Shown here: piece by piece, positions 40,561 to 57,837 of the stretch | How the letters are laid out: every line of letters starts with the position of its first letter | Numbering within the stretch: the stretch's first letter is position 1 | NCBI GenBank assembly: GCA_022616275.1 | Contig: JAKEFB010000308.1 | Span: forward strand, 22,691-86,690 | Length of the DNA: 64,000 bases | Source: Chloroflexota bacterium | GTDB lineage: Bacteria > Chloroflexota > Anaerolineae > Promineifilales > Promineifilaceae | Direction of reading: 5' to 3' | Notes under the pieces: model-generated | Told to the model about the DNA's origin: nothing | Databases searched by the model: none | The model's input: only the letters and a program-made list of their open reading frames with translations | Position numbers and translations under genes: made by a program

Positions 40561-40565
40561 ATGAG

Positions 40566-40639: not shown

Positions 40640-40655
40640 CGCAGTCGCACCTGGT

Positions 40656-40684: not shown

Positions 40685-40762
40685 CCTCTACTTGAGTTTA
40701 CACGCCAGAGTCAGACTGCAGCCATCATACCTGACTGCTTCCTCTAGCTCTAAACTCGACCA

Positions 40763-42220: not shown

Positions 42221-42293
42221 GTCGTTTGCTCAATACCTCTCTGGCTCTGGCCGGTCTCCGGCCGTGCCACTTCAGCCATTACCTGCTCAGCAA

Positions 42294-42320
42294 TAAAAAT
42301 GGCCCGCTCCAACGGGCCAT
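42294..42320 (-). terminator. Rho-independent terminator after tRNA-Leu
   Basis: On the minus strand GGCCCG (42313-42318) pairs with CGGGCC (42301-42306), extended by two A-T pairs, with loop TTGGAG and a following ATTTTTATT tract. It lies 23 bases past the tRNA-Leu 3' end and before tilS. Confidence 0.8.
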
Positions 42321-42342
42321 ACCGGGCATAAAATCTGCTTCA

Positions 42343-42426
<84 letters not shown>

Positions 42427-42467
42427 GAACTGGACGCCAACCGGCGCCTTCCAACCTAGTTGCTCGT

Positions 42468-42496
42468 ATTGTACACGGCAACCAGGAGGACAACAA
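42468..42496 (-). promoter_or_regulatory. Candidate promoter of tRNA-Leu
   Basis: On the minus strand TTGTTG (42491-42496), a 17-base spacer and TACAAT (42468-42473) place a start near 42461, 35 bases before the tRNA. The -10 is good and the -35 moderate. Confidence 0.55.
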
Positions 42497-42542
42497 GCGA
42501 CCCTTATAGTACAAAATGCCCTCGATCATGACATAAGGGGGT

Positions 42543-42571
42543 TTGACTTGACCTATACCTAAATGTATAAT
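42543..42571 (+). promoter_or_regulatory. Near-consensus promoter of the GTPase/kinase/AAR cluster
   Basis: TTGACT (42543-42548), a 17-base spacer and TATAAT (42566-42571) lie 63 bases before the DUF4388 start. This is among the strongest promoters in the window and the only clear one before the cluster that runs to 55933. Confidence 0.75.
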
Positions 42572-42634
42572 GCCAAAATTGAAAGGCCCAATTATTGTGA
42601 AAAATTTTAAACTAAACTGCAGGAACTGTTAAAG

Positions 42635-43474
42635 ATGGCGCTTAAAGGGAACCTGCGCGATTTCTCGACAACCCAACTTTTGAACTTGATCAGCCTGGCG
42701 CGCAAAACCGGGACCCTCACCATTGAAGGCAGCCAGGTCGCTCAGATGTCTTTTCGCGAAGGGAAGCTCATTTATGCCTCCCTGGGTGAAAACGGCAACA
42801 ACCTGGCCCAGATCTTGCAAAGGGCGGGCAAACTCTCCGACGAACAGGGACGGATCATTCAAAGTCGCGCCCAGGGAACAGGGGATAAACAACTCGGTCA
42901 TCTTCTGATCCAGGCTGGCTACGTGACCCAGAGCGACATTATCCAGAGCGTACGCCAGCACGTCCTCGACATTGTCTATAAGTTGTTCACCTGGGTAGAC
43001 GGCATCTTTCGTTTTGACGCCAACAGGACTCCTTCGGCAGACCGGATCACAGTCCCCATTGACTTGGAAAGTGTCATTATGGAAGGCAGCCGCCGCCTGA
43101 AAGAGTGGGAGCGGCTACAAGAAGAGTTGCCCGATCTGGATATTGCCCTTCGCTTCACCGACCGGCCCGACGCCCGCCTCCGTAACATCAACCTGACAGT
43201 CGAGGAATGGCGTGTCGTCTCCTTTATCAATCCTCGAAACACTATTCGCCAGATTGCCGAAGCCAATAATTTAAGTGAGTTCCAGATCCGCCGGATTGTC
43301 TACGGTATGCTACAAGCCGGCCTCGTGCAAATTGTCCAGACGGCCAAACCGGTGGGCGCTCCTGTACAACAGCAAATGCCGCCCCGCGCTGCCGAGCAAC
43401 GCCTGCTCGAACAACAACCCGCCGTCAAACGGTCAGTGGTCACACGCCTGATAGATCGTATCCGCAGCCTCTAA
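42635..43474 (+). CDS. DUF4388 protein with winged-helix C-terminus
   Basis: The 279-aa product starts with a DUF4388 (PatA N-terminal-like) domain: MALKGNLRDFSTTQLLNLIS, then LARKTGTLTIEG, MSFREGKLIYASLG and ILQRAGKLSDEQ (1-115). A middle part resembles its second half (YKLFTWVDGIFRFD). Near residues 185-240 is a winged-helix-like segment: LTVEEWRVVSFINPRNTI, RQIAEANNLSEFQIRRIVYG. DUF4388 proteins pair with two-component systems and Ras-like GTPases in Chloroflexota, Deinococcus and myxobacteria, probably as adaptor or GTPase partner. It is the first gene after the strong promoter. The exact role is unknown. Confidence 0.8.
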   Translation: MALKGNLRDFSTTQLLNLISLARKTGTLTIEGSQVAQMSFREGKLIYASLGENGNNLAQILQRAGKLSDEQGRIIQSRAQGTGDKQLGHLLIQAGYVTQSDIIQSVRQHVLDIVYKLFTWVDGIFRFDANRTPSADRITVPIDLESVIMEGSRRLKEWERLQEELPDLDIALRFTDRPDARLRNINLTVEEWRVVSFINPRNTIRQIAEANNLSEFQIRRIVYGMLQAGLVQIVQTAKPVGAPVQQQMPPRAAEQRLLEQQPAVKRSVVTRLIDRIRSL

Positions 43475-43650
43475 CCGGCCTGGTGGCTGTGGCCGTTTAG
43501 TTCGTTCTGGTTGTCGTACCGGTTAACTGAATACCCTTTGATTAATTGCTATTGATTCTGTTATCCTGAGTACGCCAGCGTGCCGGTGACAACCATAAGG
43601 TGCTAACAACTTGAGTTGGTATCAAAATAATTACCAGTTGGTAGGGTTTT

Positions 43651-44193
43651 ATGCAAGCTGTTAAGATGGTTGTAACCGGTCCATTCTCTGCTGGCAAAAC
43701 AGAGTTCATCAGCTCGGTCAGCGAAATTGACGTTGTTTCCACCGAGCGAAGGATTTCCAGCGTCTCGGAAGCGGCCGTCAAAGGCCAGACGACGGTGGCT
43801 ATGGATTTTGGCCGGATTACGGTAGATGACGACTTGGTCCTTTATCTCTTCGGCACCCCCGGCCAGCGCCGTTTTGATTTCATGTGGGAAATCCTGTCCG
43901 AAGGCATGTTGGGTTTTATCGTTCTGGTGGATAGCACCAAGCCAGAAACGTTCCGTGAGGCTAAACGAATCCTGGAAACCTTTGAAAGTTACGCTTCAAC
44001 ACCCTATGTCGTCGCCGCCAACAAACAAGATCACGAGGATGCCTGGGAACCAGACGACCTGCGAATCATCCTGCGCCTGAATCCCAGCGTCAAGGTGTTG
44101 CCCTGCGTTGCCCTGGACAAAGAAAGTGTCAAAAACGTTCTGTTGGAGTTACTCTATTCGATCCTGGAACAATTAGATGAGTCCGAGTCCTGA
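43651..44193 (+). CDS. CvnD/MglA-like small GTPase (COG2229 type)
   Basis: The 180-aa protein has P-loop GPFSAGKT (10-17), switch I Thr in GQTTVAMDFGRI (46-57), the G3 region LYLFGTPGQRRF (65-75) and G4 NKQD (124-127). The normal G3 Asp is Gly (GTPGQ), and the pattern TTVAMDFGRI with DLVLYLFGTPG is the hallmark of CvnD GTPases from actinobacterial 'conservons', which work with a histidine kinase, a roadblock protein and DUF742. Here no roadblock protein is present; the DUF4388 protein takes that place in gene order. Soluble, likely a GTP-dependent switch. Confidence 0.85.
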   Translation: MQAVKMVVTGPFSAGKTEFISSVSEIDVVSTERRISSVSEAAVKGQTTVAMDFGRITVDDDLVLYLFGTPGQRRFDFMWEILSEGMLGFIVLVDSTKPETFREAKRILETFESYASTPYVVAANKQDHEDAWEPDDLRIILRLNPSVKVLPCVALDKESVKNVLLELLYSILEQLDESES

Positions 44194-44324
44194 GGCAATT
44201 CATTAACGTTTCATTTACTCCTCCTTCACTTGCTTTTCACTGCCGTCATCTGGGGCCAATGTTACTATCTCATTTGTCGGGAGGCTCAGCAGATGGGCAA
44301 AGGAAAACAGGCGGCCGCCTCGCG

Positions 44325-44346
44325 TGTAGGGCCTCCAGTCCCTACA
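44325..44346. repeat. TGTAGGG/CCCTACA hairpin inside the cluster
   Basis: TGTAGGG (44325-44331) and CCCTACA (44340-44346) form a 7-bp hairpin with an 8-base loop. It lacks a T-tract, so it is not a clear terminator. The stem matches the outer part of the palindrome at 11819-11848. The surrounding gap 44194-44398 has no gene. Confidence 0.55.
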
Positions 44347-44398
44347 CAACAAATGCTCAATCTGTTGAGTCCGCAAATGGTCGTGCGCTGAGGCGAAC

Positions 44399-45229
44399 GT
44401 GAGCTCTATCGTTACGGAACAGGGTATTTTACATTATGAATCTATCGGCCGGGGGCAGCCCATCATTCTGCTGCACGGCTGGATAAATTCATGGGACGTC
44501 TGGCGAGAGTCCATGATTGCCCTGGCCTCGGAGCGAAAGTATCGCGTCTATGCACTGGACTTTTGGGGTTTCGGGGATTCAGCCAAGGGCACGGGGGATG
44601 CCGCCTCAGCCTTCCAAATCTCCAGCTACGTGGAAATGGTCCGGCAGTTCATGGACACGCTGGGCATTCTCCACGCCCCGGTAGCTGGCCATTCCATGGG
44701 GGGAACTGTCGCCCTGCAACTGGCCCTCAACCACCCCGAGCGCATCAAAAAAGTCGCTGTCGTCGGCTCACCCATCATTGGCTCCTCTTTGAACCCCTTT
44801 CTGAAACTGGCCGGTTACGGCTGGATTGCCGAGCTTGTCTGGCGCTACCCTTTCATCCGCTCCACCATCATGCGCATTTTGCTGGCCGGCGATTCCAAAA
44901 AAGTCCGTCAGATGATCTTCCGTGACGTGCAGCGAACGAGCATTGAGTCCTTTTTCCGTAGCATCGGCGATTTGCGCGATACCGACCTGCGTGGGGAATT
45001 AGGCAAACTGACCATTCAAACGCTTGGCATCTATGGCACCAGAGATAACATCGTCTCCCCCACCAATGCCGAGTTATTGATCAGTAAGACGAAGTGCGCC
45101 GAAATTACGATGATGGAGCATTCCCGCCACTTCCCCATGACAGACGAGCCGGAACGGTTCGTGAGTACTTTAACGCGCTTCATGAGTAACCATGAAGGGG
45201 ATAGCCTGAGGTTAGCCGATGCTAATTAA
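44399..45229 (+). CDS. Alpha/beta hydrolase with intact catalytic triad
   Basis: The 276-aa protein starts at a GTG with GAGG about nine bases upstream. The fold is clear: oxyanion loop HGWINSWDVW (26-35), nucleophile elbow GHSMGG (S99), acid YGTRDNIVSP (D216) and base HSRHFPM (H244). Family members are esterases, lipases, thioesterases, dehalogenases or peptidases; the substrate cannot be told from sequence. No signal peptide. It overlaps the V4R gene by 11 bases, so they are coupled. A paralogue lacking the nucleophile closes the cluster (55142). Confidence 0.85.
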   Translation: MSSIVTEQGILHYESIGRGQPIILLHGWINSWDVWRESMIALASERKYRVYALDFWGFGDSAKGTGDAASAFQISSYVEMVRQFMDTLGILHAPVAGHSMGGTVALQLALNHPERIKKVAVVGSPIIGSSLNPFLKLAGYGWIAELVWRYPFIRSTIMRILLAGDSKKVRQMIFRDVQRTSIESFFRSIGDLRDTDLRGELGKLTIQTLGIYGTRDNIVSPTNAELLISKTKCAEITMMEHSRHFPMTDEPERFVSTLTRFMSNHEGDSLRLADAN

Positions 45230-45878
45230 ACCAAAAGAAGAACCCCATACTGCGCTGGAGGAGCGCGAGTATTACTATCCTAACAAAATGGGCCGGATTG
45301 TGTTGACGGCCATGGAAGACATCATGGGCCGGCACGGGGTAAACGCCGTTTTAAACCTGGCCGGGCTCAGCCGTTTCGTCAACAACTACCCCCCCAACAA
45401 CCTGGAGTTGGGTTTTACCTTTTCCGAGTTTGGCGCTATCCAGGAAACGTTGGACGAGATGTACGGGGTGCGCGGCGGACGCGGCCTGGCCATGCGTGCC
45501 GGCCGGGAAACCTTCAAATACGCCCTCAGGGAATTCATGCCCGTCCTGGGCATTGCCGACCTGGCTTTCCGGCCGCTACCGCTGGGCATCAAGCTGAAAA
45601 TCGGCCTGGAGGTCTTTGCCGAAACGTTTAACAAATTTACCGACCAGATTGTCAAGTTGAGCCAGGATTCGGAAAAACACCTCTGGAAAATTCTACGTTG
45701 CCCGGTTTGCTGGGGACGCCAGTCGGAAAGTCCCTGCTGCCACCTGGCTGTGGGCCTGTTGCAAGAATCACTCTACTGGGTCAGCAACGGCAAAAACTTC
45801 TACGTCAAAGAAATAGAATGTGTCGCCGCCGGTGATGAAGCATGTGTCATTGCCATTAACAAGAAGCCGATTATTTAG
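45219..45878 (+). CDS. V4R (4-vinyl reductase) domain protein
   Basis: The 219-aa protein ends in a V4R domain with its cysteine pattern: CPVCWGRQSESPCCH (C161, C164, C173, C174) then YVKEIECVAAGDEACVI (C201, C209). The N-terminal half (MGRIVLTAMEDIMGRHGVNA) is the usual helical partner. V4R domains bind small hydrophobic ligands in BchJ and in phenol-sensing regulators such as DmpR/XylR, and the cysteines may bind a metal. Standing alone and coupled to a hydrolase and an acyl reductase, it probably senses or carries a hydrophobic molecule. Function inferred. Confidence 0.8.
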   Translation: MLIKPKEEPHTALEEREYYYPNKMGRIVLTAMEDIMGRHGVNAVLNLAGLSRFVNNYPPNNLELGFTFSEFGAIQETLDEMYGVRGGRGLAMRAGRETFKYALREFMPVLGIADLAFRPLPLGIKLKIGLEVFAETFNKFTDQIVKLSQDSEKHLWKILRCPVCWGRQSESPCCHLAVGLLQESLYWVSNGKNFYVKEIECVAAGDEACVIAINKKPII

Positions 45879-45881
45879 CTG

Positions 45882-47165
45882 ATGCGCCGTATTATTCTAC
45901 AAGAACTTAGTCACATACATCCTTTCAATGAGCCTGCCCGTGACTTGAGAGTTCACAACGTTCCCCTTTGGCTATGGCAGCGCGACGTCCTCAACCCCTA
46001 CGTCACCGAGGAGCGCGAATACCCGGACTGGAAGATTGCCCAGCGGCTCGAGGGGGACGAACAGGTGGAACGGCTGGTCCACCGGGACAACCTCTTCTTC
46101 AACAAAGCCCTGATTGATGAATTCATGGCCCGGGCCCGCGCCGGTCGCAAGCCGGTGCGTATTGCCTTTCGCAAGGACGATCTGACTATTGTCGAACACA
46201 TCCGGCCGCTAACCCGTTCCTTCTTTGAACAAGACAATCTTCTCCTGGCCGACATGTGGTACTTGCCCCAGGGCATTTCTCAAAACCTGGTCGCCCAGCC
46301 CCTCGTCATTGAAACAGAGCCCCGCGAAGTCGGCTACTACCACGTGCCGCCCTACATGGCCTCGGTCACTGGCGACCTGGTCTATCAATTACCCCGTAAA
46401 GCCTTTGTCTGTCTGGAAAGCTGGGTCCACCTCTTTGTCATTGACATCCTCTTCGGCGTTTTCGCCCAAGGCAAAGACATAGAAGACAAGGTAGACTCTG
46501 ACTGGCGTTACCGGCTCAAGATACTCTTTAAAGCCCTGGTCGAGCAAAAACAGGTCTTAGATTGTTCCGAGCTGGTTAAAGTGGGTCAGAACGTCAACAT
46601 TGACCCCTCGGCCGTCATCCACGGTCTCACGACCATCGGCAACAACGTCACCATTGGCCCTGGTGTCGTCATTGACAACTGCATCATCGGCAACAACGTC
46701 AACGTCTCCCAGGGTTGCCAGTTAATGCTCAGCGTCGTCAGCGACGGCTGTTTTCTGCCTTTCCGCGCCTCCCTCTTCATGACCACCCTGATGGAAAACT
46801 CGATGGTCGCCCAGAATACCTGCCTGCAACTATGCGTCGTCGGCCGGGACTCTTTCATTGGCGCCGGTTCTACTTTCACCGACTTCAACGTCTTGCCCGC
46901 CCCCTTGAGGGCTTTTGGCGCCAAGGGGCTGGAAGAGACCAACATGTTCGTCCTCGGCGGCTGCGTTGGCCACCATTGCCGCCTGAGTTCGGGTTTGGTC
47001 ATCTACCCGGCCCGCACCATCGAATCAGACGTGGTGCTCCTGGCCAGCGAAGAAAGACGATACATTACCAACAACATCTGTTACGAAGACAGCGACCATC
47101 ACGCCCTGAAATTGAAATACCCTTACCCCCGGCTGTATCCCCGCCGCGAGGAACAACCGGAATAA
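45882..47165 (+). CDS. Left-handed beta-helix (hexapeptide) protein with novel N-terminal region
   Basis: The 427-aa protein has a hexapeptide-repeat left-handed beta-helix at about 232-400 (VNIDPSAVIHGLTTIGNNV, TIGPGVVIDNCIIGNNVNVS, later VVGRDSFIGAGSTFTDFN). Its first 230 residues (PLWLWQRDVLNPYVTEERE, VRIAFRKDDLTIVEHIRPL) do not match a family I know. Hexapeptide proteins are acyl- or nucleotidyl-transferases (LpxA, GlmU types), and acyl-ACP is a common donor. It lies 3 bases after V4R and 16 bases before the AAR homologue, so an acyl-transfer role in the same pathway is a reasonable guess. Confidence 0.75.
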   Translation: MRRIILQELSHIHPFNEPARDLRVHNVPLWLWQRDVLNPYVTEEREYPDWKIAQRLEGDEQVERLVHRDNLFFNKALIDEFMARARAGRKPVRIAFRKDDLTIVEHIRPLTRSFFEQDNLLLADMWYLPQGISQNLVAQPLVIETEPREVGYYHVPPYMASVTGDLVYQLPRKAFVCLESWVHLFVIDILFGVFAQGKDIEDKVDSDWRYRLKILFKALVEQKQVLDCSELVKVGQNVNIDPSAVIHGLTTIGNNVTIGPGVVIDNCIIGNNVNVSQGCQLMLSVVSDGCFLPFRASLFMTTLMENSMVAQNTCLQLCVVGRDSFIGAGSTFTDFNVLPAPLRAFGAKGLEETNMFVLGGCVGHHCRLSSGLVIYPARTIESDVVLLASEERRYITNNICYEDSDHHALKLKYPYPRLYPRREEQPE

Positions 47166-47181
47166 CCACAAGTGGGCTTCA

Positions 47182-48282
47182 ATGCCAGACACTTTTGCCT
47201 TTATCATTCACCCCATTGACCCGCAACGAGACGTAGCCCGCAAGTTTCCGGCTCTGGGTAAGCTGCCCGTCTGGCTGATTGACTTTCTGTCGCTGTTCTT
47301 CCCCCCTGTTTACATTTCTAAGATTACCGGCATTCAATCGCTGGCCACCGACCGCCACATAGAAGGCTGGTTCATCGCCTGCCCGCTCACCCCCAGACGT
47401 ATGATGACTCTGCCCCCGGAAGTGGTCTACCGCAAGATCATCCAGACCGGTCGGCTGGCCGAGCGGCTGGGCGCTCGCATCCTCGGTCTGGGGGCTTTTA
47501 CCTCGGTCGTCGGGGACGGCGGGATTACCATTGCCCGGCATCTGAACATCCCCGTGACTACCGGCGATAGCTATACCGTCTCCATTGCCGTCCAGGCCAT
47601 CGAACAGGCTGCCGCGCGCATGGCCATCCCTGTGGCCGGCGCCACGGCCGCAGTCGTCGGGGCCACTGGTTCTATTGGCTCTCTCTCCGCCGTCTTGCTG
47701 GCCGATAAGGTCAACCGCATGCTGCTCGTCGGCCGCAACCCGGACAGACTCAACGCCGTCGCCGGCCGGGTGCAGACTGCCGGCTGCCCCCAGGTAGAGG
47801 TTACCACCGACATCGGCCGGCTGGTCGAAGCCGAGCTGGTCATTACCGTCACCAGCGCCGTCGAATCCATCATCCGGCCAGAGCACCTGCGCCGGGGCGC
47901 CGTAGTTTGCGACGTGGCCCGCCCCCGCGACGTTTCGCGGCAGGTGGTCGAACAGCGCCGCGATGTCCTCGTCATTGAGGGCGGTATGGTCGAAGTGCCC
48001 GGCCTGGTAGATTTTGGTTTTGATTTTGGCTTCCCCCCAAAAATGGCCTACGCCTGCATGGCCGAAACCATGGCCCTGGCCCTGGAAGGACACTACCATT
48101 CTTTCACACTAGGAAAAGATATCCAATTGTCACAAATAACTACCATTGATAAAATTGCTTCACAGCATGGTTTCAAACTTGCCGGTTTTCGCAGCTTCGA
48201 AAGAGCCATCACTGAATCTGAAATTGCCGACATTAAAGCACAATCCCAGTTCATGTATCCAGTAGTGGCCAACGGCAGTTAG
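47182..48282 (+). CDS. Long-chain acyl-ACP reductase (AAR) homologue
   Basis: The 366-aa protein matches the cyanobacterial fatty acyl-ACP reductase along its length, from my memory of the Synechococcus elongatus sequence. It has FAFIIHPIDPQRDVARKFP, HIEGWFIACPL, GLGAFTSVV, TTGDSYTVSIAVQAIEQAA, the NADPH motif VVGATGSIG (158-166), IEGGMVEVPG and YACMAETMALALEGHYHSF. C292 falls where the AAR thioester cysteine (Cys294) lies, and K/H-rich HGF close to the end matches too. AAR reduces acyl-ACP to fatty aldehyde. No aldehyde-deformylating oxygenase is in the window, so the aldehyde may go to alcohol, wax ester or a signal. A shikimate-dehydrogenase-like label would be the generic annotation. Confidence 0.8.
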   Translation: MPDTFAFIIHPIDPQRDVARKFPALGKLPVWLIDFLSLFFPPVYISKITGIQSLATDRHIEGWFIACPLTPRRMMTLPPEVVYRKIIQTGRLAERLGARILGLGAFTSVVGDGGITIARHLNIPVTTGDSYTVSIAVQAIEQAAARMAIPVAGATAAVVGATGSIGSLSAVLLADKVNRMLLVGRNPDRLNAVAGRVQTAGCPQVEVTTDIGRLVEAELVITVTSAVESIIRPEHLRRGAVVCDVARPRDVSRQVVEQRRDVLVIEGGMVEVPGLVDFGFDFGFPPKMAYACMAETMALALEGHYHSFTLGKDIQLSQITTIDKIASQHGFKLAGFRSFERAITESEIADIKAQSQFMYPVVANGS

Positions 48283-48407
48283 TGTAATGGCTAATCGTTG
48301 TCTCGTATGCAAGATAAGTAACCAGAACGACCATCAGGGTCAATGCCTCAGGCAATTGACCCCATTTCCGGCCTCTGGTTGCCAGATTGACGAAAGGAAA
48401 GTGGCTT

Positions 48408-49301
48408 ATGAGTAACGCCCGAATACTAGTGGTAGAAGATGATTTCGACATCTCCAACATGCTCCGCATCTATTTCACCGGGCAAGGCTACAGTGTGGAA
48501 GTGGCTGCGCGGGGCAGCGATGCCCTGACGGCCTGTCGCCGTCAGCTACCCGACCTGATTGTGCTGGACATCATGCTGCCCGACATGGATGGCTACGCCG
48601 TTTGCCGCGAGCTACGAACCACCACCCGCACCAGTCACATTCCCATTATCTTCCTCACCCAACGGGACGAGCGGAGCGACCGAATTGCCGGGCTGGAACT
48701 CGGGGCGGACGATTACATCACCAAGCCGTTCGACATTGAGGAATTGAAACTGCGCGTGCGAACCGCCATCCGTTCCTACCAGCGCCTCAACATGACCGAC
48801 CCGCGCACCGGCCTGCCCAGCGGCCGCCTCATCGAAGAACAGCTCCGAGAATTGATGCGCTCCGACGACTGGGCCTACATCATGGTCGGCGTTGATTCCA
48901 TGGCCCCCTTCATTGACGAGTATGGCTTCGTCGCCGCCGACGAAGTGCTACGCAACATGGCCCTGCTGCTCAACGAAGCCGTGGACCAGTTTGGCACAGC
49001 CAACGACTTCCTCGGCCATGCCAGTGGTGAAACCTTCGTCGTCATCACTCACTCCAAGAGTGTGGCGGCGATGATTGACCACCTGCGGAAACGGTTCGAC
49101 GAAGAGGCGCCGACGCATTATAGCTTTATCCACCGTGAACAAGGTGGCATTCCCCAGCCGGACGGCACCCTGGCCCCGCTGATGAGTCTTTCTTTTGGTA
49201 CCGTTTCCAGCCAGACACAAACTTTTTCCGACATCCGAGAGATTACCGAAACTGCGGCCGAGTTGCGCCGCCTGAATAGCCAGGACTCACCAAAGCGTTG
49301 A
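48408..49301 (+). CDS. Response regulator with degenerate GGDEF domain
   Basis: The ATG at 48408 has GAAAGGAAAG upstream; an earlier TTG is less likely. Of 297 residues, 1-120 form a receiver (ILVVEDDFD acidic pair, phospho-Asp in DLIVLDIMLPD, Thr in FLTQ, Lys in TKPFD). The rest is diguanylate-cyclase-like: DPRTGLPSGRLIEEQLREL at the start, but the active GG(D/E)EF is replaced by ASGETF. It therefore should not make c-di-GMP and may bind GTP or partners. It starts 31 bases before the kinase gene and is its likely partner. Confidence 0.85.
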   Translation: MSNARILVVEDDFDISNMLRIYFTGQGYSVEVAARGSDALTACRRQLPDLIVLDIMLPDMDGYAVCRELRTTTRTSHIPIIFLTQRDERSDRIAGLELGADDYITKPFDIEELKLRVRTAIRSYQRLNMTDPRTGLPSGRLIEEQLRELMRSDDWAYIMVGVDSMAPFIDEYGFVAADEVLRNMALLLNEAVDQFGTANDFLGHASGETFVVITHSKSVAAMIDHLRKRFDEEAPTHYSFIHREQGGIPQPDGTLAPLMSLSFGTVSSQTQTFSDIREITETAAELRRLNSQDSPKR

Positions 49302-49332
49302 ACGTGGGGCGTTAAACGTTCAAACGAACGGG

Positions 49333-52300
49333 ATGGAAAAGGAATTGACTTCGGCCACCACGCTCAGCTTCCTCGACAATTTGCACGAGGGTATTTTGGT
49401 TGTGGCAACCGACGGCACAATTCAATACCTCAACCAGGCAGCGATAGAGTTGCTGGGACTTGAGCGAGAACCGGCTACCCTTTATGAGGCCGTTGCTCCT
49501 TATGAAGCCTGGCAGGAGCTGCTGGAAGGAGATTCGGAAACGCATCTCTACACCAACGCCGGCCGGGTTGGCGTGCAGGCCAGGACGACTACCTGGCAAA
49601 ACACCCCGGCCGTGCAACTGGTGCTGACCCCTGCCCACGCGGTCGAAGATAGCCAGGGTAGGGGACAACTCGACGACCGCCTGGCTGCCCTCACCCGGAT
49701 CAGCCAGCAGTTGAGCGCCACCCTCCGTCTCGACGCTATCCTCCAGGCCGTCGTCGAGGAAGCCACCGCTAACACCGGGGCAACCGGCGGGCACGTCAGC
49801 CTGTACAACAAGGCCCAGGAGCAATTTGCCATGCGCCTGGTGCGCGGCGACGCCGTCCCGCCCGAGCTTCTGGCCGGCCTGGAAAAAGAGGTCCTGGAGA
49901 GTCGCCAGGGCTTGATCCGCCACCGCCTGCCTAAGAAATTTAAGACTCGCTCTCTACTCATTGTTCCCATCGTCTACGAGGGCCTGGTGGCTGGCATGAT
50001 CGTTCTTTACAGCAGCCAGCCAGACTACTTCGACGAAGAAGAACGCCTCTTTGTCGTCGCCCTGGCCAATCACGCGGCGATTGCCATTGGTAATGCGCAA
50101 CGCTTTGATGAGCTAAACAAACGCAGCACTCTGCTCCATCGCCGGGCGCAACAAATCGAACGCTTTGTCGAATCCAGCCGGGTAATGCACGACGACCGGC
50201 CGCTGTCCGAGGTCTACGACGACCTGGTTTACGCCATTCAGGAAGGGGTTGGTTTTCACATTGTCGTCCTTAACCTGATTGACGAAGACGCTCCTGCCAT
50301 GCCTCTGCGTACTATCGCCGCGGCCGGCCTGCCCCTGGAACGCTTCCAGGAAATCCAGCAAATGGTCCAGCCCTGGGCAGAGATTGAAAAAGTCCTCGTG
50401 CCGGAATTTGCCCTGGGCCGCGCTTACTTCGTACCCGCCGAGCGAGCCGACGCTTACGCCAACCTGCAGACGTTCCAGGCCTCCGATCTGTACCCGGTGA
50501 AAGTCCTGGTAGATCAACGCGGTGAATCCACCTACCACGTTGTCTTTGTAGCCGATGACGATGTTTTGAACGTCCGCACCCGGCCGGGCACTGCCCACCA
50601 GGTCATCTCCGCCTTGCCGCACGACGCCCGCCAAATCTACATCACCGGCTCGGCCCAGGCAGTGGACGGCTCTTTCTGGGTCCCCATCATTTACCGGGAC
50701 ATCGCCGGCTGGGTCAATGAACGCTACCTGCAAGAAGATCCCCTCCCTATACAGAATTGGGATCCCAACGACTTGTTTGTCATTCCTTTACTCGGCTCGC
50801 GGGGCCAGCCTATTGGCCTCATCAGCCTGGATTCGCCCGTGGACGGCCACCGGCCGGATATCAACACCGCTAAAGCCTTGGAAATTTTCGCTAACCAGGC
50901 GGCTACAGCCATTGAGAATATCCGGCTTTATCACAACACACGCGCCTACGCCAACCAACTCCAACAATTGCACAACATCTCCCAACAAGTTCTGCGTGAG
51001 CTAGACTTTGACCGGCAGTTGCAGTTGATCGTCGAAAGTATCCAGGCCGCCGGTTGGGATCGCTCCACCCTGACCCTGCGCGACAGAGAATTGAACGTCG
51101 TCAAGCTCGTCGCCGCCGGCCTGACCGAGGAAGAAGTTCGCTTCTTGAAAGACAACCTGCTCCCGGCCGAAACGTGGCGCGAACGTCTGACTGACGAGCG
51201 CTATAGCCACTACCGGGTAGGCGCCTGCTACTTTATGCCGGCCGATGACCCCTGGGTCCAGGAAAGGGTAGGGCTTGGCTTGCCCGATAATTCGCCGGTT
51301 CGGGCCGAACCGTACGCCTGGCATCCCGATGACCTTTTGTTCCTGCCATTGTACGACCGGGAGCAGCACGTCATGGCCATCATTAGCCTGGACCACCCCC
51401 AGGACGGCCGCCGGCCAACCCTCCGGTCCGTACAGATCATCGAGCTGTACGCCCAAATGGCCACGCCCATCATTGAAAACTCGCAACTCTACCAGGAGAT
51501 GCAGCACCAGTTGGCTGACCTGCGCACAGTCACCGAGGTGGGCCGGGCCATCTCCACCATCCTGGACCTGGAAGAATTGCTGGAACAAATCGGCCGGGCT
51601 ATCTCGGCCGCCTACCAGGTAGACAGCTACTACATCTCCCTCTACAACACCACTGACAACACCCTCCACTTCCCGGTTTTGGTCGAGCGAATGGCATCGC
51701 AAGACGTGTCGCCAATCCAGGCTGAGCGCGGTCCCACTAATTACGTTTTCCGGACTGGACAGCCGCTGCTGGTCAGCAACAAATCCGAATGGGACAAACA
51801 CACCGACCCTGGCTACGGCGAACCCTCCGAATCGTACCTGGCCGTGCCCATGCGCGCCGCCGACCGGGTGATTGGTGTAATTGCCATCCAGGACTATAGC
51901 CGGCCCAATCTCTTCGGCGATCACCACATCCGCACCTTAACGACAATTGCCTCCCAGGCGGCCGTAGCTATTGAAAATGCCCGGTTACTGAGCGAAACGC
52001 TGGCCCGTAGCCAGGAGTTGCGGATCTTATTTGAAGCCAGCCATGCCATCTCCGGCACCCTGGACCAGGAAATTGTTCTGACCGCCATGGGCGATTACTT
52101 ACTCCAGGTGGTCAACGCCCAAGGCTACACCATCTACGAGTGGAACCGGGCCAAACGAGAAGCGGTCGTAGTAGCAGAACACGCCCGGCTGGCCCAGCGC
52201 GATCTCACCCCGGCCAGCGCCGTCTACAACCTGGCCGATTTCAAAGTCATACAGCAGGTAATAGATACTCAGGTACCCCTGGTTGCCCAGGTTGACGGCC

Positions 52301-54723
52301 AGACCGTCACCTTACCCAAGAGACCCGCCTGGCTGCCGGAAGGAGAAACGACCTTTACGGCCGCGCTGCTACCCATTATCATCCGCGACGAAATCTACGG
52401 CGTCGTCGAAATAACGGCTCCGGCCGGGCGCCACACCTTTAACGAAAACGAACTACAATCGCTACTGGCTATTATCAACCAGGCGGGCATTGCCATGGAA
52501 AACGCCCAACTGTTTGAGGATACCTACCAGCGCGAGCGGTTCTTTGCCGCCCTCGGCCGGGTGAGCCTGGCCATTAACGCCACCTTTGACCTGCCCACCG
52601 TCCTGAGCCTCATCTGCCAGGAAAGCCTGAGCCTCTTCCAGGTGGACGGCGCCTACATCTGGCAGCGGCAGGAAGACGAGCTGGTGGGCATTGCTGCCCA
52701 GGGCCACGCCAGCGAGGAGTTCTCCGGATTACGGATTCCTGCCACCGATATTTCCACCTTTGCCGCTACCGTCGTTCATCAAGGTGAAGGGACGTTTATC
52801 AACAACTTCCGCCAACAGTCGGCCGTCAACCTGCACCTGCCTCAACAAGAATCTATCCAGGCAGTGCTGGGTATTCCGCTCATGCAGGAAGCGGACATCA
52901 TCGGCGCCCTCATCCTGGTCGAAAGAAGCCGGCCGGATCGCTTTGGCCCACGCGATATGGAGCAGGCTACCGTCTTTGGCGTCCAGGCCGCCATCGCCAT
53001 CCAGAACGCCCAACTGGTAACCGAGTTGCGCGAGTTGAACGAGCAGTTGGATGAACGGGTGGCCGAACGTACCCGCGCCCTGGGCCAGGAGCGCGACCGG
53101 GTGCAATACCTGCTGCGCATCACCACTGAGCTGTCGGCCAGCCTGGACCAGGACCGGGTCTTGAGCCAGGCCCTGGAACTGGTCAACGAAGTCGTCAACG
53201 CCACCCAGGGTGGTATCCTGCTCATGGACAGCGATACCGGAAATCTGGTCTATCGCGCCGCCTTCGGCCGTCCGGAACGCCTGCCTGCCCAGGGTGCGGT
53301 CCTGGACCTCAGCCTCGACAGGGGGCTGGCCGGCTCGATTATTCATAACCGGACGGCTGTGGTCATCAACGACACCCAGGCCGATGAACGTTGGGTCAGC
53401 CCGCCCGATAACCCTGAGCACCGTTCCGTCCTGGCCGTTCCTCTCATTTCCAGCGACGAAGTGATTGGCGTCTTGATGCTCTTTCACAAAGAGCCGGGCG
53501 CTTTTACCCAACAGCAACTGGAACTGGTCGAGGCGGCCACCATTCAGGTCGCCAATGCCATCAATAATGCCCAACTGTACCTCCTCATCCGCGATCAGGC
53601 CGAGCGGTTGGGCACAATGCTCCGCCTGGAACAAATCGAAGCAGCCAAGAACCAGGCCATCGTGGAAAGTATTGCTGACGGCGTGCTCGTGGCCGACGCG
53701 GCCGGCCAGGTTATCCTGGCCAACATGCCGGCCAGTCTCATCCTCGACATCCCCCGTCGGCAGCTCATTGGTAAATCTATCAATGAGTTGTTGGGCCTCT
53801 ACGGTTCTTCAGGCGAGTCCTGGATGCGTACCATTGACCGGTGGGGCCGCCACGCCGATGGCAGCCACGAGTACCGCGCCTCCCTGGCCGACCGGCTGAC
53901 CGTCGAAGATAAAGTAGTCAGTGTCCACCTGTCGCCGGTCTTCGCCAACAACCAGTTCTTTGGGACGGTCTCCATTTTCCGTGACATCACCAAGGAAGTA
54001 GAAGTGGACCGGATGAAGAGCGAGTTTGTCTCCACCGTTTCCCACGAGTTGCGCACCCCCATGACCTCGATCAAAGGGTACGCCGACCTGATGTTGATGG
54101 GCGCGGCCGGGCTAATGACCGATCCCCAGTTGCGCTACCTGAAGGTCATCAAGAACAACGCCGACCGCCTGAGTATGCTGGTTAACGACTTGTTGGACAT
54201 CTCCCGCATTGAGACCGGCAAGACCGAGCTTGACCTGCGCCCCCTCGACATTCCCCAGGTTATTGAACAGGTGGTGGAAGGCCATCTGCGCGGCCGGATC
54301 GAGCACGAGGGCAAGCCCATCAAAGTCTTCACCGAGATGGCCCCCTCCTTGCCCCTGGTCCATGCCGACCATGCCCGGATTACCCAGGTGCTGACCAATC
54401 TGTTGGATAATGCCTTCCATTACACGCCGGCCGAGGGTGAAATCAAGGTTAGGGTCGTGTCCAACGGCAACTACGTCGTTATCAGTATTACTGATACAGG
54501 TATTGGTATCAGTAAGGAAAACCAGAAAAAGATCTTTGATCGCTTCTTCCGGGCCGAAGACGCGGAAGTACAAAGGGTCGCCGGCACGGGTCTGGGTCTG
54601 TCAATTGTACGCAGCCTCATCGAAATGCACGGCGGTCGAATCGAAGTAGAAAGTACCCTGGGCAAAGGCAGTACCTTTACCTTCAGCCTGCCCTTGGTAC
54701 CCGAGGAGAGTGATGTTGTGTAG
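49333..54723 (+). CDS. Cytosolic histidine kinase: PAS, seven GAF, inserted SH3b, PAS, HisKA, HATPase
   Basis: This 1796-aa protein has no membrane segment. In order: PAS (about 10-100), GAF1 (119-260), GAF2 (295-534) interrupted at 403-465 by a bacterial SH3 domain (DDVLNVRTRPGTAHQV, GWVNERYL), GAF3 (546-720), GAF4 (730-890), GAF5 (895-1060), GAF6 (1070-1225), coiled coil, GAF7 (1257-1420), PAS (1438-1555), HisKA with H1571 (STVSHELRTPM) and HATPase (NLLDNAFHYTP, DTGIGIS, GTGLGLSIV). It should phosphorylate the receivers at 48408 and 54777. The many GAF domains imply several small-molecule inputs. SH3b domains normally bind cell wall outside the cell, so one inside a soluble kinase is odd. 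Confidence 0.9.
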   Translation: MEKELTSATTLSFLDNLHEGILVVATDGTIQYLNQAAIELLGLEREPATLYEAVAPYEAWQELLEGDSETHLYTNAGRVGVQARTTTWQNTPAVQLVLTPAHAVEDSQGRGQLDDRLAALTRISQQLSATLRLDAILQAVVEEATANTGATGGHVSLYNKAQEQFAMRLVRGDAVPPELLAGLEKEVLESRQGLIRHRLPKKFKTRSLLIVPIVYEGLVAGMIVLYSSQPDYFDEEERLFVVALANHAAIAIGNAQRFDELNKRSTLLHRRAQQIERFVESSRVMHDDRPLSEVYDDLVYAIQEGVGFHIVVLNLIDEDAPAMPLRTIAAAGLPLERFQEIQQMVQPWAEIEKVLVPEFALGRAYFVPAERADAYANLQTFQASDLYPVKVLVDQRGESTYHVVFVADDDVLNVRTRPGTAHQVISALPHDARQIYITGSAQAVDGSFWVPIIYRDIAGWVNERYLQEDPLPIQNWDPNDLFVIPLLGSRGQPIGLISLDSPVDGHRPDINTAKALEIFANQAATAIENIRLYHNTRAYANQLQQLHNISQQVLRELDFDRQLQLIVESIQAAGWDRSTLTLRDRELNVVKLVAAGLTEEEVRFLKDNLLPAETWRERLTDERYSHYRVGACYFMPADDPWVQERVGLGLPDNSPVRAEPYAWHPDDLLFLPLYDREQHVMAIISLDHPQDGRRPTLRSVQIIELYAQMATPIIENSQLYQEMQHQLADLRTVTEVGRAISTILDLEELLEQIGRAISAAYQVDSYYISLYNTTDNTLHFPVLVERMASQDVSPIQAERGPTNYVFRTGQPLLVSNKSEWDKHTDPGYGEPSESYLAVPMRAADRVIGVIAIQDYSRPNLFGDHHIRTLTTIASQAAVAIENARLLSETLARSQELRILFEASHAISGTLDQEIVLTAMGDYLLQVVNAQGYTIYEWNRAKREAVVVAEHARLAQRDLTPASAVYNLADFKVIQQVIDTQVPLVAQVDGQTVTLPKRPAWLPEGETTFTAALLPIIIRDEIYGVVEITAPAGRHTFNENELQSLLAIINQAGIAMENAQLFEDTYQRERFFAALGRVSLAINATFDLPTVLSLICQESLSLFQVDGAYIWQRQEDELVGIAAQGHASEEFSGLRIPATDISTFAATVVHQGEGTFINNFRQQSAVNLHLPQQESIQAVLGIPLMQEADIIGALILVERSRPDRFGPRDMEQATVFGVQAAIAIQNAQLVTELRELNEQLDERVAERTRALGQERDRVQYLLRITTELSASLDQDRVLSQALELVNEVVNATQGGILLMDSDTGNLVYRAAFGRPERLPAQGAVLDLSLDRGLAGSIIHNRTAVVINDTQADERWVSPPDNPEHRSVLAVPLISSDEVIGVLMLFHKEPGAFTQQQLELVEAATIQVANAINNAQLYLLIRDQAERLGTMLRLEQIEAAKNQAIVESIADGVLVADAAGQVILANMPASLILDIPRRQLIGKSINELLGLYGSSGESWMRTIDRWGRHADGSHEYRASLADRLTVEDKVVSVHLSPVFANNQFFGTVSIFRDITKEVEVDRMKSEFVSTVSHELRTPMTSIKGYADLMLMGAAGLMTDPQLRYLKVIKNNADRLSMLVNDLLDISRIETGKTELDLRPLDIPQVIEQVVEGHLRGRIEHEGKPIKVFTEMAPSLPLVHADHARITQVLTNLLDNAFHYTPAEGEIKVRVVSNGNYVVISITDTGIGISKENQKKIFDRFFRAEDAEVQRVAGTGLGLSIVRSLIEMHGGRIEVESTLGKGSTFTFSLPLVPEESDVV

Positions 54724-54776
54724 TGCCGCCATCCCTCCCGGGGGTTCGGCAACGACCCACTCAGACGAAGAAGCTT

Positions 54777-55145
54777 ATGTTAAAAATATTAATAGCTGAA
54801 GACGAACCCGATATTCGCGAATTGATTACTCTGACACTGCAATTCAGCGGCTACGAAGTAGTCAGCGCCAAGGATGGGGTTGAAGCAGTCGAAGTGGCTC
54901 AAGCCGATAAATTCGACCTGATCCTCATGGATGTCCGTATGCCCCGCATGACTGGTTACGAAGCTTGCCGCCAACTGCGTGCTATTGAGACTACCAAACA
55001 CATCCCCATCATCTTCCTGTCGGCCAAAGGCCAGGAGTCGGAGGTCCAGGCAGGGCTGGATGCCGGGGCAGACCAGTACATCCTGAAACCGTTTGCGCCA
55101 GACCTGCTCTCCAGGAAAATCAGGGAAGTTCTCGGTAAGCAATGA
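54777..55145 (+). CDS. Single-domain response regulator (CheY-like)
   Basis: The 122-aa product from the ATG at 54777 starts MLKILIAEDEPDIRELI. It has the acidic pair (ED), phospho-acceptor in DLILMDVRMPRM, Thr/Ser in IFLSAKG and Lys in ILKPFAPD. No output domain. It follows the kinase by 53 bases and overlaps the next gene by 4 (ATGA), so it probably relays the kinase signal to that gene's product or to a protein elsewhere. Confidence 0.9.
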   Translation: MLKILIAEDEPDIRELITLTLQFSGYEVVSAKDGVEAVEVAQADKFDLILMDVRMPRMTGYEACRQLRAIETTKHIPIIFLSAKGQESEVQAGLDAGADQYILKPFAPDLLSRKIREVLGKQ

Positions 55146-55933
55146 GCATTACCACCATTGGCGACCACCTGATTCATTATGAGGCCCTCGGCCGAGGCGA
55201 GCCGTTGATCTTTGTCCACGGTTGGCTCGGCTCATGGCGCTATTGGTGGCCGTCCATGCAGGAGCTGTCCACTCAACACCGGACCTTCGCTTTCGACCTG
55301 TGGGGCTACGGTGACTCCAGCAAAGCGCAGAACAAGTACTCTTTTGAAGCTTACGTCGAGATGCTGGACCAGTTCGTGGACAAGCTGGGTATTATCAAGC
55401 CCTTCACCCTCGTCGGCCACGCCCTGGGCGCGGCCGTCTCACTCCGCTACACCCTGCTACGGCCGCAAAGTATCAAGAAGATCATTATGGTTGCCCTGCC
55501 CCTTCAGGGTGGACATATCAACGACCGCCTGACCAACACCGACTCCACCTCCTTCATTAACCGCGTCCTGGGCAAGTCCAACGTCTACCCCGAAGTCGAA
55601 TCGGAAACGCGGAAGACCGATAAAGCGGCCATGAACGCAGTCGCCAGCCAACTGATCAGCTACAACTTTGCCGCCGACCTGGAAAAATGTACCTGCCCGG
55701 CCCTCCTGGTCTTTGGTGGCCAAGACCCGGTGGTCCAGCCCCCGGCCGGCGATTACAGCCAGCTCCAACGGCCGGAAAACAACCGCCATTACGTCTCCTT
55801 GGACGGTTGCAACCATTTCCCCATGTTAGAGCAAACGGCCAAGTTCAACCGGTTGCTGTTGGACTTCATCCGCACCGCCGACAACTTCACCGACATTGCC
55901 CCCAAAGAGCATTGGCAACGCCGGACTCGCTGA
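55142..55933 (+). CDS. Alpha/beta hydrolase-fold protein lacking the nucleophile serine
   Basis: The 263-aa protein aligns with the hydrolase at 44399 (LIHYEALGRGEPLIFVHGWL, FDLWGYGDSS, YVEMLDQFVDKLGII). The nucleophile elbow reads GHALGAA, so position 94 is Ala where the paralogue has Ser99. The acid (FGGQDP, D195) and base (GCNHFPM, H225) are kept. The enzyme should be hydrolytically inactive. Plant and bacterial hydrolase-fold proteins have become receptors (for example GID1, RsbQ-like signalling keeps the triad). Coupled to a receiver gene, this one may be a ligand-binding signalling partner. No signal peptide. Confidence 0.85.
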   Translation: MSITTIGDHLIHYEALGRGEPLIFVHGWLGSWRYWWPSMQELSTQHRTFAFDLWGYGDSSKAQNKYSFEAYVEMLDQFVDKLGIIKPFTLVGHALGAAVSLRYTLLRPQSIKKIIMVALPLQGGHINDRLTNTDSTSFINRVLGKSNVYPEVESETRKTDKAAMNAVASQLISYNFAADLEKCTCPALLVFGGQDPVVQPPAGDYSQLQRPENNRHYVSLDGCNHFPMLEQTAKFNRLLLDFIRTADNFTDIAPKEHWQRRTR

Positions 55934-56082
55934 GTCTGGGCGAACTTCTGTCCGGTAGTGCCCAATCAAATCCCCCTAATCAATGTAAACAGGACCCAGA
56001 TTTTCCCGATAAACGCTGATTTGATTTTTTATCTGCGTCATCTGTGTTAATCTGCCTCCTGTTTTGTAGGAGAATCTTGCCA

Positions 56083-57294
56083 ATGAAGGTTGCTGCTTTA
56101 ACGTTAAGACGATGGCTTTTTTGTGTCGCCATTTTGCTGCTGGCTGCCTGCCAGTCGGAATCGGCCGCACCGACTCCAACGATAGGCCCGCCGGCCGCCG
56201 GTACCCCGTCCGCGTTGTCCTCTCCCACCGCCACCCTATTACCCGGGCCTGTTATCAGCACCCCGGGATTGCCGGCTACGACCCCTGTGGCCGGCCAGCC
56301 CACGGCCGTCCTTCAGCCCACCCAGTCCATCCCCGGCCTCATCGGCCCGGCTAACTTCCCACCCAACGTCAACCCCCTCACCGGCGAAACGGTGGCCGAC
56401 CCGGCCGTCCTCCAGCGCCGGCCCATCGCCATCAAAATCTCTAACATTGCCCGCGTCCGGCCGCAGTCTGGCCTCAATAGCGCCGACCTGCTCTACGAAC
56501 ATTACACCGAAGGCGGCATTACCCGCTTTACAGCCCTCTTCTACGACCAGGACGCTGCTAAAGTGGGCTCCGTGCGCAGCGCCCGGCTCATTGACCTGGA
56601 AATCCCGGTCATGTACGACGCCGCCTTTGCCTATTCTGGGGCCAGCGGGCCGGTGCGCCTGATGCTCCGCGATAGCGCCTTCTTCAACCGGGTCATCTCC
56701 CCCGACTTCGGCCACGGCGGCTTTGACCGCATCAGCGATCCCAACAACCCCGGCCAGTTCTTTGAAGACACCCTCTTTACCAACACCGCCGTCCTGCGTT
56801 CCATCCTCGACCAGCGCGGCGAAAACCGGCCGCCTGTCTTCCAGAACGGTATGGCCTTCCACCCCACGCCCCCGGCCGGCGGCGTTCCCGCCAGCGCCCT
56901 GGAAGTCACCTACCTGGCCACCGACGCCTTTTGGCAATACAACCCGGCCACCGGCCGCTACACCCGCTGGAGCGACGGCGTTCCCCACCTGGACGCCGCC
57001 ACCGGCCAGCAATTGGACTTCAAAAATATTATCGTCCTGGCCGCCCACCACGAAGACACCGACATCGTCGAAGATACCAACGGCTTCTTCTCCATCCAGA
57101 TTCAGATCTGGGGTGAAGGCCCCGTCTCCATCTTCCGCGACGGCCAGCGCTTCGAGGGTCGTTGGCGGCGGGCCACTCCCGGCGAGATGCTCACCTTCTA
57201 CGACCTGCAGGGCAACATCTTGCCCCTGGCCCCCGGCAACACCTTCTTCCAGATCGTCCCCCTGGGCTTCACCGATCTCATCGTGACGCCTTAA
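56083..57294 (+). CDS. DUF3048 lipoprotein (YerB-like)
   Basis: The ATG at 56083 follows TAGGAGAATCTTGCCA, giving a 403-aa product. MKVAALTLRRWLFCVAILLL then AAC is a lipoprotein signal. A Pro/Thr/Gly linker runs to about residue 85. The DUF3048 domain follows: NPLTGETVADPAVLQRRPIA, IKISNIARVRPQSGLNSADL, YEHYTEGGITRFTALFYDQ, SVRSARLIDLEI. The C-terminal half has TFYDLQGNILPLAPGNTFFQ. It is surface-anchored; the family is uncharacterised. The upstream gap 55934-56082 contains an AT-rich ATCTGCGTCATCTGTGTTAA repeat. Confidence 0.85.
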   Translation: MKVAALTLRRWLFCVAILLLAACQSESAAPTPTIGPPAAGTPSALSSPTATLLPGPVISTPGLPATTPVAGQPTAVLQPTQSIPGLIGPANFPPNVNPLTGETVADPAVLQRRPIAIKISNIARVRPQSGLNSADLLYEHYTEGGITRFTALFYDQDAAKVGSVRSARLIDLEIPVMYDAAFAYSGASGPVRLMLRDSAFFNRVISPDFGHGGFDRISDPNNPGQFFEDTLFTNTAVLRSILDQRGENRPPVFQNGMAFHPTPPAGGVPASALEVTYLATDAFWQYNPATGRYTRWSDGVPHLDAATGQQLDFKNIIVLAAHHEDTDIVEDTNGFFSIQIQIWGEGPVSIFRDGQRFEGRWRRATPGEMLTFYDLQGNILPLAPGNTFFQIVPLGFTDLIVTP

Positions 57295-57303
57295 AGGGCT
57301 GAC

Positions 57304-57837
57304 ATGGCCGAATTAACCCGTCAGGAAGTAGCCACCATTTTACGTGGCACGAAGTCCCTCTTCCGCCGCGACCTGTCCGGGCTGGATCTCAGCCAGCTCA
57401 ACTTCTCCCAGGCCAACCTGCGGGACGCCAACCTGATGGGCGCCGACCTGCGCGGGGCCGCCCTGGTTGGCGCCAACCTGGACGGGGCTAACCTCTCCGC
57501 CGCCAACCTCAGCTTGGCCGATCTAGCCGATGCTAGGCTGAGAGGGGCCAACCTGATCTTAGCCAACCTCGCCGTCGCTTCCCTACGCGGCGCCGATCTG
57601 ACCTTCGCCAACTTAACCGGAGCCAACCTGACCGGGGCCAATCTCTTTGTCGCCAACCTGACTGAGGCTATACTAATCCACACCAACTTAGGCGTCAGCC
57701 AGTTGACCGGTGTCAATCTGACTGGAGCCTGCCTGTTCGGGGCCAGCCTGGTTGGGGCCAACCTGGACGAAACCATCCTGGCCGGCTGCAACCTGATGAA
57801 CGCCACCCTGCCCGACGGCACGATCTACAAGGAGTAA
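57304..57837 (+). CDS. Pentapeptide-repeat protein
   Basis: The 177-aa product has a short lead (MAELTRQEVATILRGTKSLF) and then about 25 A(D/N)Lxx units: ANLRDANLMGADLRGAAL, ANLDGANLSAANLSLADL and so on to NATLPDGTIYKE. It folds as a right-handed square beta-helix. Roles in the family range from gyrase protection to unknown. It has no signal peptide. It starts 9 bases after the DUF3048 stop. Confidence 0.85.
   Translation: MAELTRQEVATILRGTKSLFRRDLSGLDLSQLNFSQANLRDANLMGADLRGAALVGANLDGANLSAANLSLADLADARLRGANLILANLAVASLRGADLTFANLTGANLTGANLFVANLTEAILIHTNLGVSQLTGVNLTGACLFGASLVGANLDETILAGCNLMNATLPDGTIYKE

Follow-up and report, generated by a model that had tools for sequence, protein, structure and literature searches.

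A conserved ten-gene Chloroflexota locus pairs an MglA-family GTPase with two-component and candidate hydrophobic-ligand genes and may form a signalling operon

We analysed a 64,000-nucleotide stretch of the genome of a Chloroflexota bacterium (GCA_022616275.1, contig JAKEFB010000308.1, positions 22,691 to 86,690; the whole stretch is called the window below), in which ten co-directional open reading frames (ORFs) on the plus strand, here g1 to g10, span positions 42635–55933. We tentatively read this cluster as a conserved Chloroflexota signalling operon of three modules, which would sense and respond to an acyl or other hydrophobic metabolite, and rank this reading above motility control, biosynthesis and unlinked modules, in that order. 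Gene content, gene order, promoter, co-occurrence, modular splitting and the catalytic residues kept or lost were observed directly. The promoter and the ten genes are as follows.

42543..42571, plus strand: sigma-70-type promoter, TTGACT-17-TATAAT, consensus score 11/12
42635..43474, plus strand: g1, DUF4388 (PATAN) protein with a C-terminal winged-helix-like domain, 279 amino acids (aa) (Pfam, E 7.6e-29)
43651..44193, plus strand: g2, small Ras-like GTPase of the MglA family, G3 GTPGQ, G4 NKQD, 180 aa (Pfam)
44399..45229, plus strand: g3, alpha/beta hydrolase ABH1, triad Ser99-Asp216-His244, 276 aa (Pfam)
45219..45878, plus strand: g4, V4R-domain protein, Cys161/164/174/201/209, 219 aa (Pfam, 30.7 bits)
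45882..47165, plus strand: g5, nucleotidyltransferase-like N-domain and left-handed beta-helix (LbH, hexapeptide repeats), 427 aa (AlphaFold 2, AF2)
47182..48282, plus strand: g6, acyl-ACP/PigE-type reductase (AAR homologue), 366 aa (NCBIfam and profile alignment)
48408..49301, plus strand, ORF opening at 48387: g7, receiver with degenerate GGDEF domain (Pfam)
49333..54723, plus strand: g8, histidine kinase with PAS and many GAF domains, 1796 aa (Pfam)
54777..55145, plus strand, ORF opening at GTG 54723: g9, single-domain receiver (Pfam; relatives 121–126 aa)
55142..55933, plus strand: g10, alpha/beta hydrolase ABH2, Ala at position 94, Asp195 and His225 kept (Pfam)

The initial annotation of this DNA had described ten genes in one direction behind a near-consensus promoter. 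This description holds, as all ORFs are present and family calls with Pfam and NCBIfam confirmed all ten genes, the V4R call lying just at the edge of the cut-off. The promoter at 42543–42571 was the top scorer among 12 sites in 40000–58500, a region for which shuffles predict 6.7. For a wider sample we took the window and 48 of the 64 named loci which have a g1 ORF, near-identical loci being retained. A promoter scoring at least 10/12 was found within 250 bases 5′ of g1 in 45 of these 49 loci, the exceptions being L068, L071, L090 and L111, and the score was 11/12 in 42 of the 49. For the 45 loci, a score as high as the real one came up in at most 1 of 30 mononucleotide shuffles. The several overlaps first proposed were retained in part: g3/g4 (11 nucleotides, nt) and g9/g10 (4 nt) are firm, but g8/g9 overlap only if g9 begins at GTG 54723, and ATG 54777 is favoured because of the length of the receivers of relatives. 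For g7, ATG 48408 is probably the start rather than TTG 48387.

Lack of shared neighbours in related genomes had been named as a finding that would refute the cluster; this check was carried out and did not refute it. When 60 relatives were searched with g6, matches appeared in 46, and the best 30 places were made into loci; the cluster order recurs in the 29 neighbourhoods outside the window’s own genome. The flanks change: tilS is the upstream neighbour in 13 of 20 loci from the window’s family, some of which are truncated at contig ends, and in none of the 9 loci from other families. A scan of a public collection with g5 only gave 426 confirmed stretches; the 80 of these that were kept are all titled Chloroflexota and include the cultured Levilinea and Bellilinea. 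In raw same-strand counts, not corrected for contig ends, these 80 loci contain g7 in 72 cases, g3 in 71, g2 in 68, g1 in 67, g8 in 65, g6 in 55, g10 in 53, g9 in 50 and g4 in 48. The gene orders of 128 loci, which come from overlapping sets and include some contigs twice, are for the most part sub-strings of 1-2-3-(4)-5-(6)-7-8-9-10; among the exceptions are extra kinase or receiver matches and the orders 124356789 and 9712453. Across a phylum sample of 301 genomes, g5 profile matches were found in 240 at E ≤ 0.001; among the matches listed, those below 1e-60 fall in at least 53 genomes, and the weaker ones are short and cover the beta-helix part. Both g2 and g5 were detected in 37 of 60 genomes, g5 only in 2 (G030, G034), g2 only in 7 and neither in 14.

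The cluster also splits, and does so along module borders. In families f39, f49, f75 and f78, g5 is accompanied by g7 and g8, at some loci also by V4R or ABH2 (several loci end inside the kinase), and the DUF4388–GTPase pair is located elsewhere, still adjacent, in seven genomes of f39/f49 and one each of f75 and f78. AAR was not found in 12 loci of f38, f39, f49, f75 and f78, where g5 persists; the full-length g5 family is present in G176, G223 and G168. Genome G054 has the order DUF4388, GTPase, V4R, and G044 carries a roadblock ORF between GTPase and V4R. The genes of G070 (f38) run DUF4388, GTPase, roadblock, V4R, g5, ABH1, roadblock. A g8-type kinase is missing there, and another two-component pair accompanies the set, since a receiver-GAF-HisKA_3 hybrid kinase and a LuxR-type regulator lie directly 5′ of g1 on the same strand (L153:14406-16856); this pair appears to take the place of the g8-type kinase. 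The LuxR-type regulator of G070 has a known DNA-binding output. One could suppose, from the separation of modules in f39, f49, f75 and f78 and from some Anaerolineae loci which begin at g5, that independent modules under a shared promoter are merely co-inherited vertically, without joint function. We consider this improbable, as families with different flanks still share the gene order, and as the modules recombine in different pairs, G070 with its g1-g2-roadblock-V4R-g5-g3 set beside an unrelated kinase/regulator pair being one example.

The GTPase has near-invariant G1, G3 and G4 motifs across 79 alignment rows, NKQD being invariant. Two traits of the MglA family were found, namely a G3 without the conserved Asp (LFGTPGQ, 79 rows) and pairing with MglB/roadblock, adjacent or near in G044, G052, G070 and L108 and not adjacent in the window. 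g2 adjoins g1 also in nine genomes of four other families. In the window’s genome (G000), g1 is the single PF14332 (DUF4388) match found; its AF2 model has a mean predicted local distance difference test score (pLDDT) of 83. Its residues 59-107, a helical insertion, give a sub-threshold NCBIfam match to an MshE-related c-di-GMP-binding domain (19.4 vs 38 bits).

No match to Robl_LC7 was obtained among the ten cluster proteins in the Pfam scan. The window’s genome has its roadblock gene (122 aa, Pfam Robl_LC7) on another contig beside the CTP synthase gene pyrG, its product being 73% identical to the cluster copy of G070. Within the window’s family, sequence reading places the roadblock next to CTP synthase in 5 of 6 loci, while the sixth stops at the roadblock gene. 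Robl_LC7 was detected in 18 of 21 genomes searched, comprising all 17 with the GTPase and one of the 4 without it. Among 60 relatives (roadblock E ≤ 1e-20, GTPase E ≤ 1e-30), both genes were found in 40, the GTPase only in 4, the roadblock only in 1 (G039) and neither in 15 (Fisher p 1.1e-9, phylogeny ignored). A roadblock was found in 10 of 11 genomes searched of f38, f39, f49, f75 and f78 (not in G207), and among the cluster loci L031–L162 in L153 (two copies), L108 and L052; in G041 it lies beside a V4R gene, on a contig other than that of its GTPase. The initial annotation had placed DUF4388 in the role of the roadblock. This replacement was rejected, because the roadblock is encoded elsewhere in this genome, adjacent or near in some relatives, and accompanies the GTPase in 40 of the 60 genomes. 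Since the roadblock co-occurs with the GTPase, the description that suits the set better is an MglA/MglB-type module with DUF4388 added.

Actinobacterial conservons (CvnA-D) combine a histidine kinase, a small GTPase and a roadblock, with accessory proteins where the kinase has no extracytoplasmic sensor (PMC13343842, in the part used here). The likeness to the Chloroflexota cluster lies in the kinase, small GTPase and roadblock as one signalling set. According to the sections of PMC4316618 used here, the G4 motif of the CvnD group frequently deviates from [NT]KxD, and conservons include no response regulator. In contrast, the present set has an intact G4 and two receivers, and its roadblock is unlinked in the window’s family; it additionally includes V4R, the nucleotidyltransferase-like/LbH protein, two hydrolases and AAR. 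DUF742 (CvnC) had no match at E ≤ 0.01 among the ten cluster proteins, and the conservon trait LPxR was absent from the C-terminus of the window’s g8. With no operon-borne roadblock, no DUF742, no deviating G4, receivers present and no LPxR, conservon membership, implied when the GTPase was first called CvnD-like, was abandoned.

With MglA-MglB of Myxococcus and Thermus the cluster shares a GTPase without the G3 Asp, a co-occurring roadblock and PATAN near some members. The same sections of PMC4316618 place PATAN proteins close to certain MglA genes of Groups 1 and 5, both groups occurring in Chloroflexi; thus, the DUF4388–GTPase link is not itself new. The difference is that the GTPase here belongs to an order-conserved operon with two-component and hydrophobic-ligand modules. 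The MglA-family assignment, the co-occurring roadblock and the nearby PATAN domains would also suit control of polarity, gliding or filaments, in which these three proteins steer a surface or pilus machine, the kinase and receivers feed into it, and the hydrolases, V4R and AAR adjust membrane lipids. This account, second in our ranking, is nevertheless rather unlikely, as it leaves the reductase and two hydrolases unexplained and as no pilus or gliding gene occurs among the ten cluster and six flanking proteins scanned; furthermore, the carriers Levilinea and Bellilinea are not known to be motile.

The genes between the GTPase and the two-component genes are candidates for ligand handling. In g4, Cys161, 164, 174, 201 and 209 are each present in 55–59 of 63 rows, with all five in 54 of 63, and form a probable Zn site. 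Its best solved relatives are PoxR/MopR (E 0.0029 to 0.094), topped by the phenol sensor PoxR at E 0.0029; in Pfam, a relative whose gene adjoins the G041 roadblock reaches 48. In the parts used of PMC10933270, cavities of the V4R/TRAPPC3 fold bind phenols or palmitate, and in the Asgard archaeon MK-D1 the genes for small GTPases are generally not in operons with roadblock, longin or TRAPPC3. Like PoxR, Asgard Thor-TRAPPC3 and eukaryotic TRAPP, g4 has a probable V4R domain with a conserved Cys site, and its gene lies in one operon with that of a Ras-like GTPase; it differs from these in being a stand-alone bacterial protein. For g5, the early description as a beta-helix protein was right as far as the LbH is concerned, but the N-domain is predicted to be nucleotidyltransferase-like and lacks the catalytic signature. 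Structure matches (Foldseek/VIA) were ST0452, GMPPA/GMPPB and eIF2B. None of the 104 rows has GxG at residues 6-16, six of them having one Gly there, and the signature GxGTR(x)nK is absent when g5 is set against this genome’s own enzymes, a comparison in which the profiles aligned over the LbH part only. From ST0452, a sugar-1-phosphate nucleotidyltransferase with an LbH, and from GMPPA and eIF2B gamma/epsilon, g5 differs by the missing GxG loop, at an aligned identity of 12–16%.

Of the two hydrolases, ABH1 (g3) is intact, with the triad Ser in 102 of 103 readable rows and Asp and His in 106 of 106 (rows not deduplicated). ABH2 (g10), first held to be dead, does have Ala at the nucleophile in the window (GHALGA), but the nucleophile was lost only in some lineages: among 44 deduplicated rows the position is G in 20, S in 13, A in 10 and D in 1. 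On a quick tree with many weak forks, supported by the Shimodaira-Hasegawa-like approximate likelihood-ratio test (SH-aLRT) only, at least seven changes between Ser and non-Ser were counted, without direction. The acid Asp is kept in 58 of 58 and His in 57 of 58 rows where readable (not deduplicated). RsbQ-RsbP and plant D14/KAI2 are alpha/beta hydrolase folds acting as signalling partners or receptors with the catalytic Ser kept, whereas the nucleophile position of g10 varies.

The reductase g6 matches PigE in NCBIfam (E 5e-56) and aligns by profile with cyanobacterial AAR and the PigE N-domain over 325 and 310 positions. Cys292, which we take to be the AAR catalytic Cys and which aligns in the profile comparison, and GxxGxxG are present in 68 of 68 rows. 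However, g6 scores far below the equivalog cut-off of TIGR04058 (109.8 vs 449.7 bits), and no aldehyde-deformylating oxygenase (ADO, PF11266) was found in 31 genomes; the control for PF11266 matched Synechococcus elongatus and Caulobacter, above cut-off in one of the two. Because of the missing ADO partner, a cyanobacterial-type alkane pathway was rejected. Wax synthesis by WS/DGAT was likewise rejected as a requirement: WS/DGAT was found in 17 of the 31 genomes, all in the window’s family, and not in G040, G043, G045 and G047 (one each of f3, f6, f8 and f10), all of which carry AAR. Cluster-type AAR (51–100% identity) was detected in 30 of the 60 genomes, only G004 being without g5, and its contig ends inside AAR. 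A second AAR family of about 720–780 aa exists outside the cluster (L060:10103-12289, minus strand; G000:C92; G007:C12; and others). In L060 it has a Shikimate_DH Pfam match at residues 455-569 and an N-terminal part without Pfam match; consequently, the reductase is the C-terminal half.

The kept residues of AAR and the intact triad of ABH1, together with the fact that LbH folds are often acyltransferases and that His364 of g5 is kept in all 43 rows of alignment A3, allow the cluster to be seen as an operon that makes an acyl-derived component of the envelope, with AAR, the LbH protein and ABH1 as the pathway and the kinase, receivers and GTPase as its regulators. We think this slightly less likely still than motility control. 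Full AAR is dispensable while g5 persists, no acyl carrier protein, ligase or further transferase is among the ten proteins, g5 has no GxG loop, and neither ADO, in 31 genomes, nor WS/DGAT, in the four genomes named, was found. The lipid branch of the initial annotation is enzymatic in part only, as AAR can be absent, g5 lacks the signature and ABH2 is often without its nucleophile.

The third group comprises the two-component genes. The phospho-Asp of g7 is present in 95 of 95 rows. GGDEF or GGEEF was found in none of the 94 readable rows at the site, nor elsewhere in the second half of the 95 rows; the commonest variant is GGDNF (34), and the window has SGETF, so that g7 does not carry the diguanylate cyclase signature. 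The sensor part of g8 is the most variable, cluster kinase ORFs being between 678 and at least 3105 aa long, with several of them truncated at locus ends.

Taken as a signalling operon, the cluster would contain a switch module (GTPase g2, its DUF4388/winged-helix partner g1 and the roadblock encoded elsewhere), a ligand module (V4R g4, nucleotidyltransferase-like/beta-helix g5, intact-triad hydrolase g3 and often the acyl reductase g6) and a two-component module (multi-GAF kinase g8, receiver g9, receiver-pseudoGGDEF g7 and the binding-type hydrolase fold g10). In this scheme g6 and g3 would produce or trim a metabolite that is acyl-derived or hydrophobic in another way, g4 and g10 would bind it, and g5 might report a sugar- or nucleotide-like co-signal. 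Jointly, the ligand proteins would set the nucleotide state of g2 through the roadblock and g1, and also the phosphorylation of g9 and g7 by g8; output may run through protein contacts of the receivers, perhaps with DNA binding by the winged helix of g1. We infer the ligand class, the direction of signalling, all interactions and the output. A hydrophobic ligand is suggested because V4R, AAR and hydrolases are present, g10 may be a binder rather than an enzyme because its nucleophile changes, the roadblock would regulate the GTPase by analogy with MglB, and the receivers would act by contact because they have no output domain and the GGDEF is degenerate. A sense-and-respond system for a hydrophobic metabolite, already proposed initially as the simplest reading, is kept as such.

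Several observations weigh against it. The V4R match (PF02830) of the window lies at 30.7 bits just below the gathering score of 31, and fewer than three of the five Cys are present in 7 of 63 rows. The GTPase occurs without this roadblock in 4 of 60 genomes (G011, G018, G037, G038), and the Fisher tests of co-occurrence take no account of phylogeny. Linkage is not obligatory, since the GTPase pair is apart from the kinase module in f39, f49, f75 and f78. Full AAR is missing from 21 of 72 named loci holding g5 and g7, where the gap is down to 110-575 nt; in 20 it is cleanly absent, and L070 has an 89-aa remnant (L070:11236-11502, 27 bits) between g5 and g7, perhaps a recent loss. V4R and AAR occur independently (both 50, AAR only 21, V4R only 15, neither 7; odds ratio 1.1, p 1.0, overlapping loci being counted twice and one AAR remnant scored as present), so that a fixed route from AAR to V4R is not favoured. 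A more specific version starts from TRAPP and eIF2B/GMPPA folds, two folds found in eukaryotic exchange-factor complexes: the Ras-like switch would be set by the TRAPP-fold V4R, with a fatty ligand, and by an eIF2B/GMPPA-like pseudo-nucleotidyltransferase, with a sugar phosphate or nucleotide sugar, while a nucleophile-losing hydrolase-fold receptor tunes the kinase. This version we regard as doubtful.

The cluster is partly in print. The part used of PMC8756737 lists a row of genes, GAP05454-GAP05458, as neighbours of a nirS homologue of Anaerolinea thermolimosa, and among them are DUF4388, GTPase, alpha/beta hydrolase and a ‘glmU’ beta-helix protein. Going by the listed names, this row is very probably the front half of the cluster, and it went unremarked, since that part lists the four genes without interpretation. 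Among the papers listed in open-access full-text searches we found no account of this gene set as one system, and the whole operon read as one system seems to be new.

Three further observations concern single loci and the flanks. L104 and L105 (Levilinea saccharolytica NZ_LGCM01000042.1) are two head-to-head cluster copies that match position by position over 17 kb and differ in an upstream stretch of about 2.3 kb, and represent either a real inverted duplication or an assembly fold-back. DUF3048 (56044-57294 in the window) lies downstream in five loci of the window’s family, and upstream and divergent in five of other families. At 26001-28000 the window has a strong local strand bias (GC skew -0.34, AT skew -0.22).

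Bacterial small GTPases are known mainly from motility and conservons. The cluster described here adds a GTPase/kinase operon whose gene order is conserved and with which a roadblock co-occurs, from a phylum where genetics is little developed. A V4R protein of the TRAPP fold beside a Ras-like GTPase makes a bacterial GTPase–V4R link directly testable, and ABH2, whose nucleophile has changed repeatedly within an otherwise conserved site, offers a natural experiment on the possible conversion of a hydrolase fold into a binding protein.

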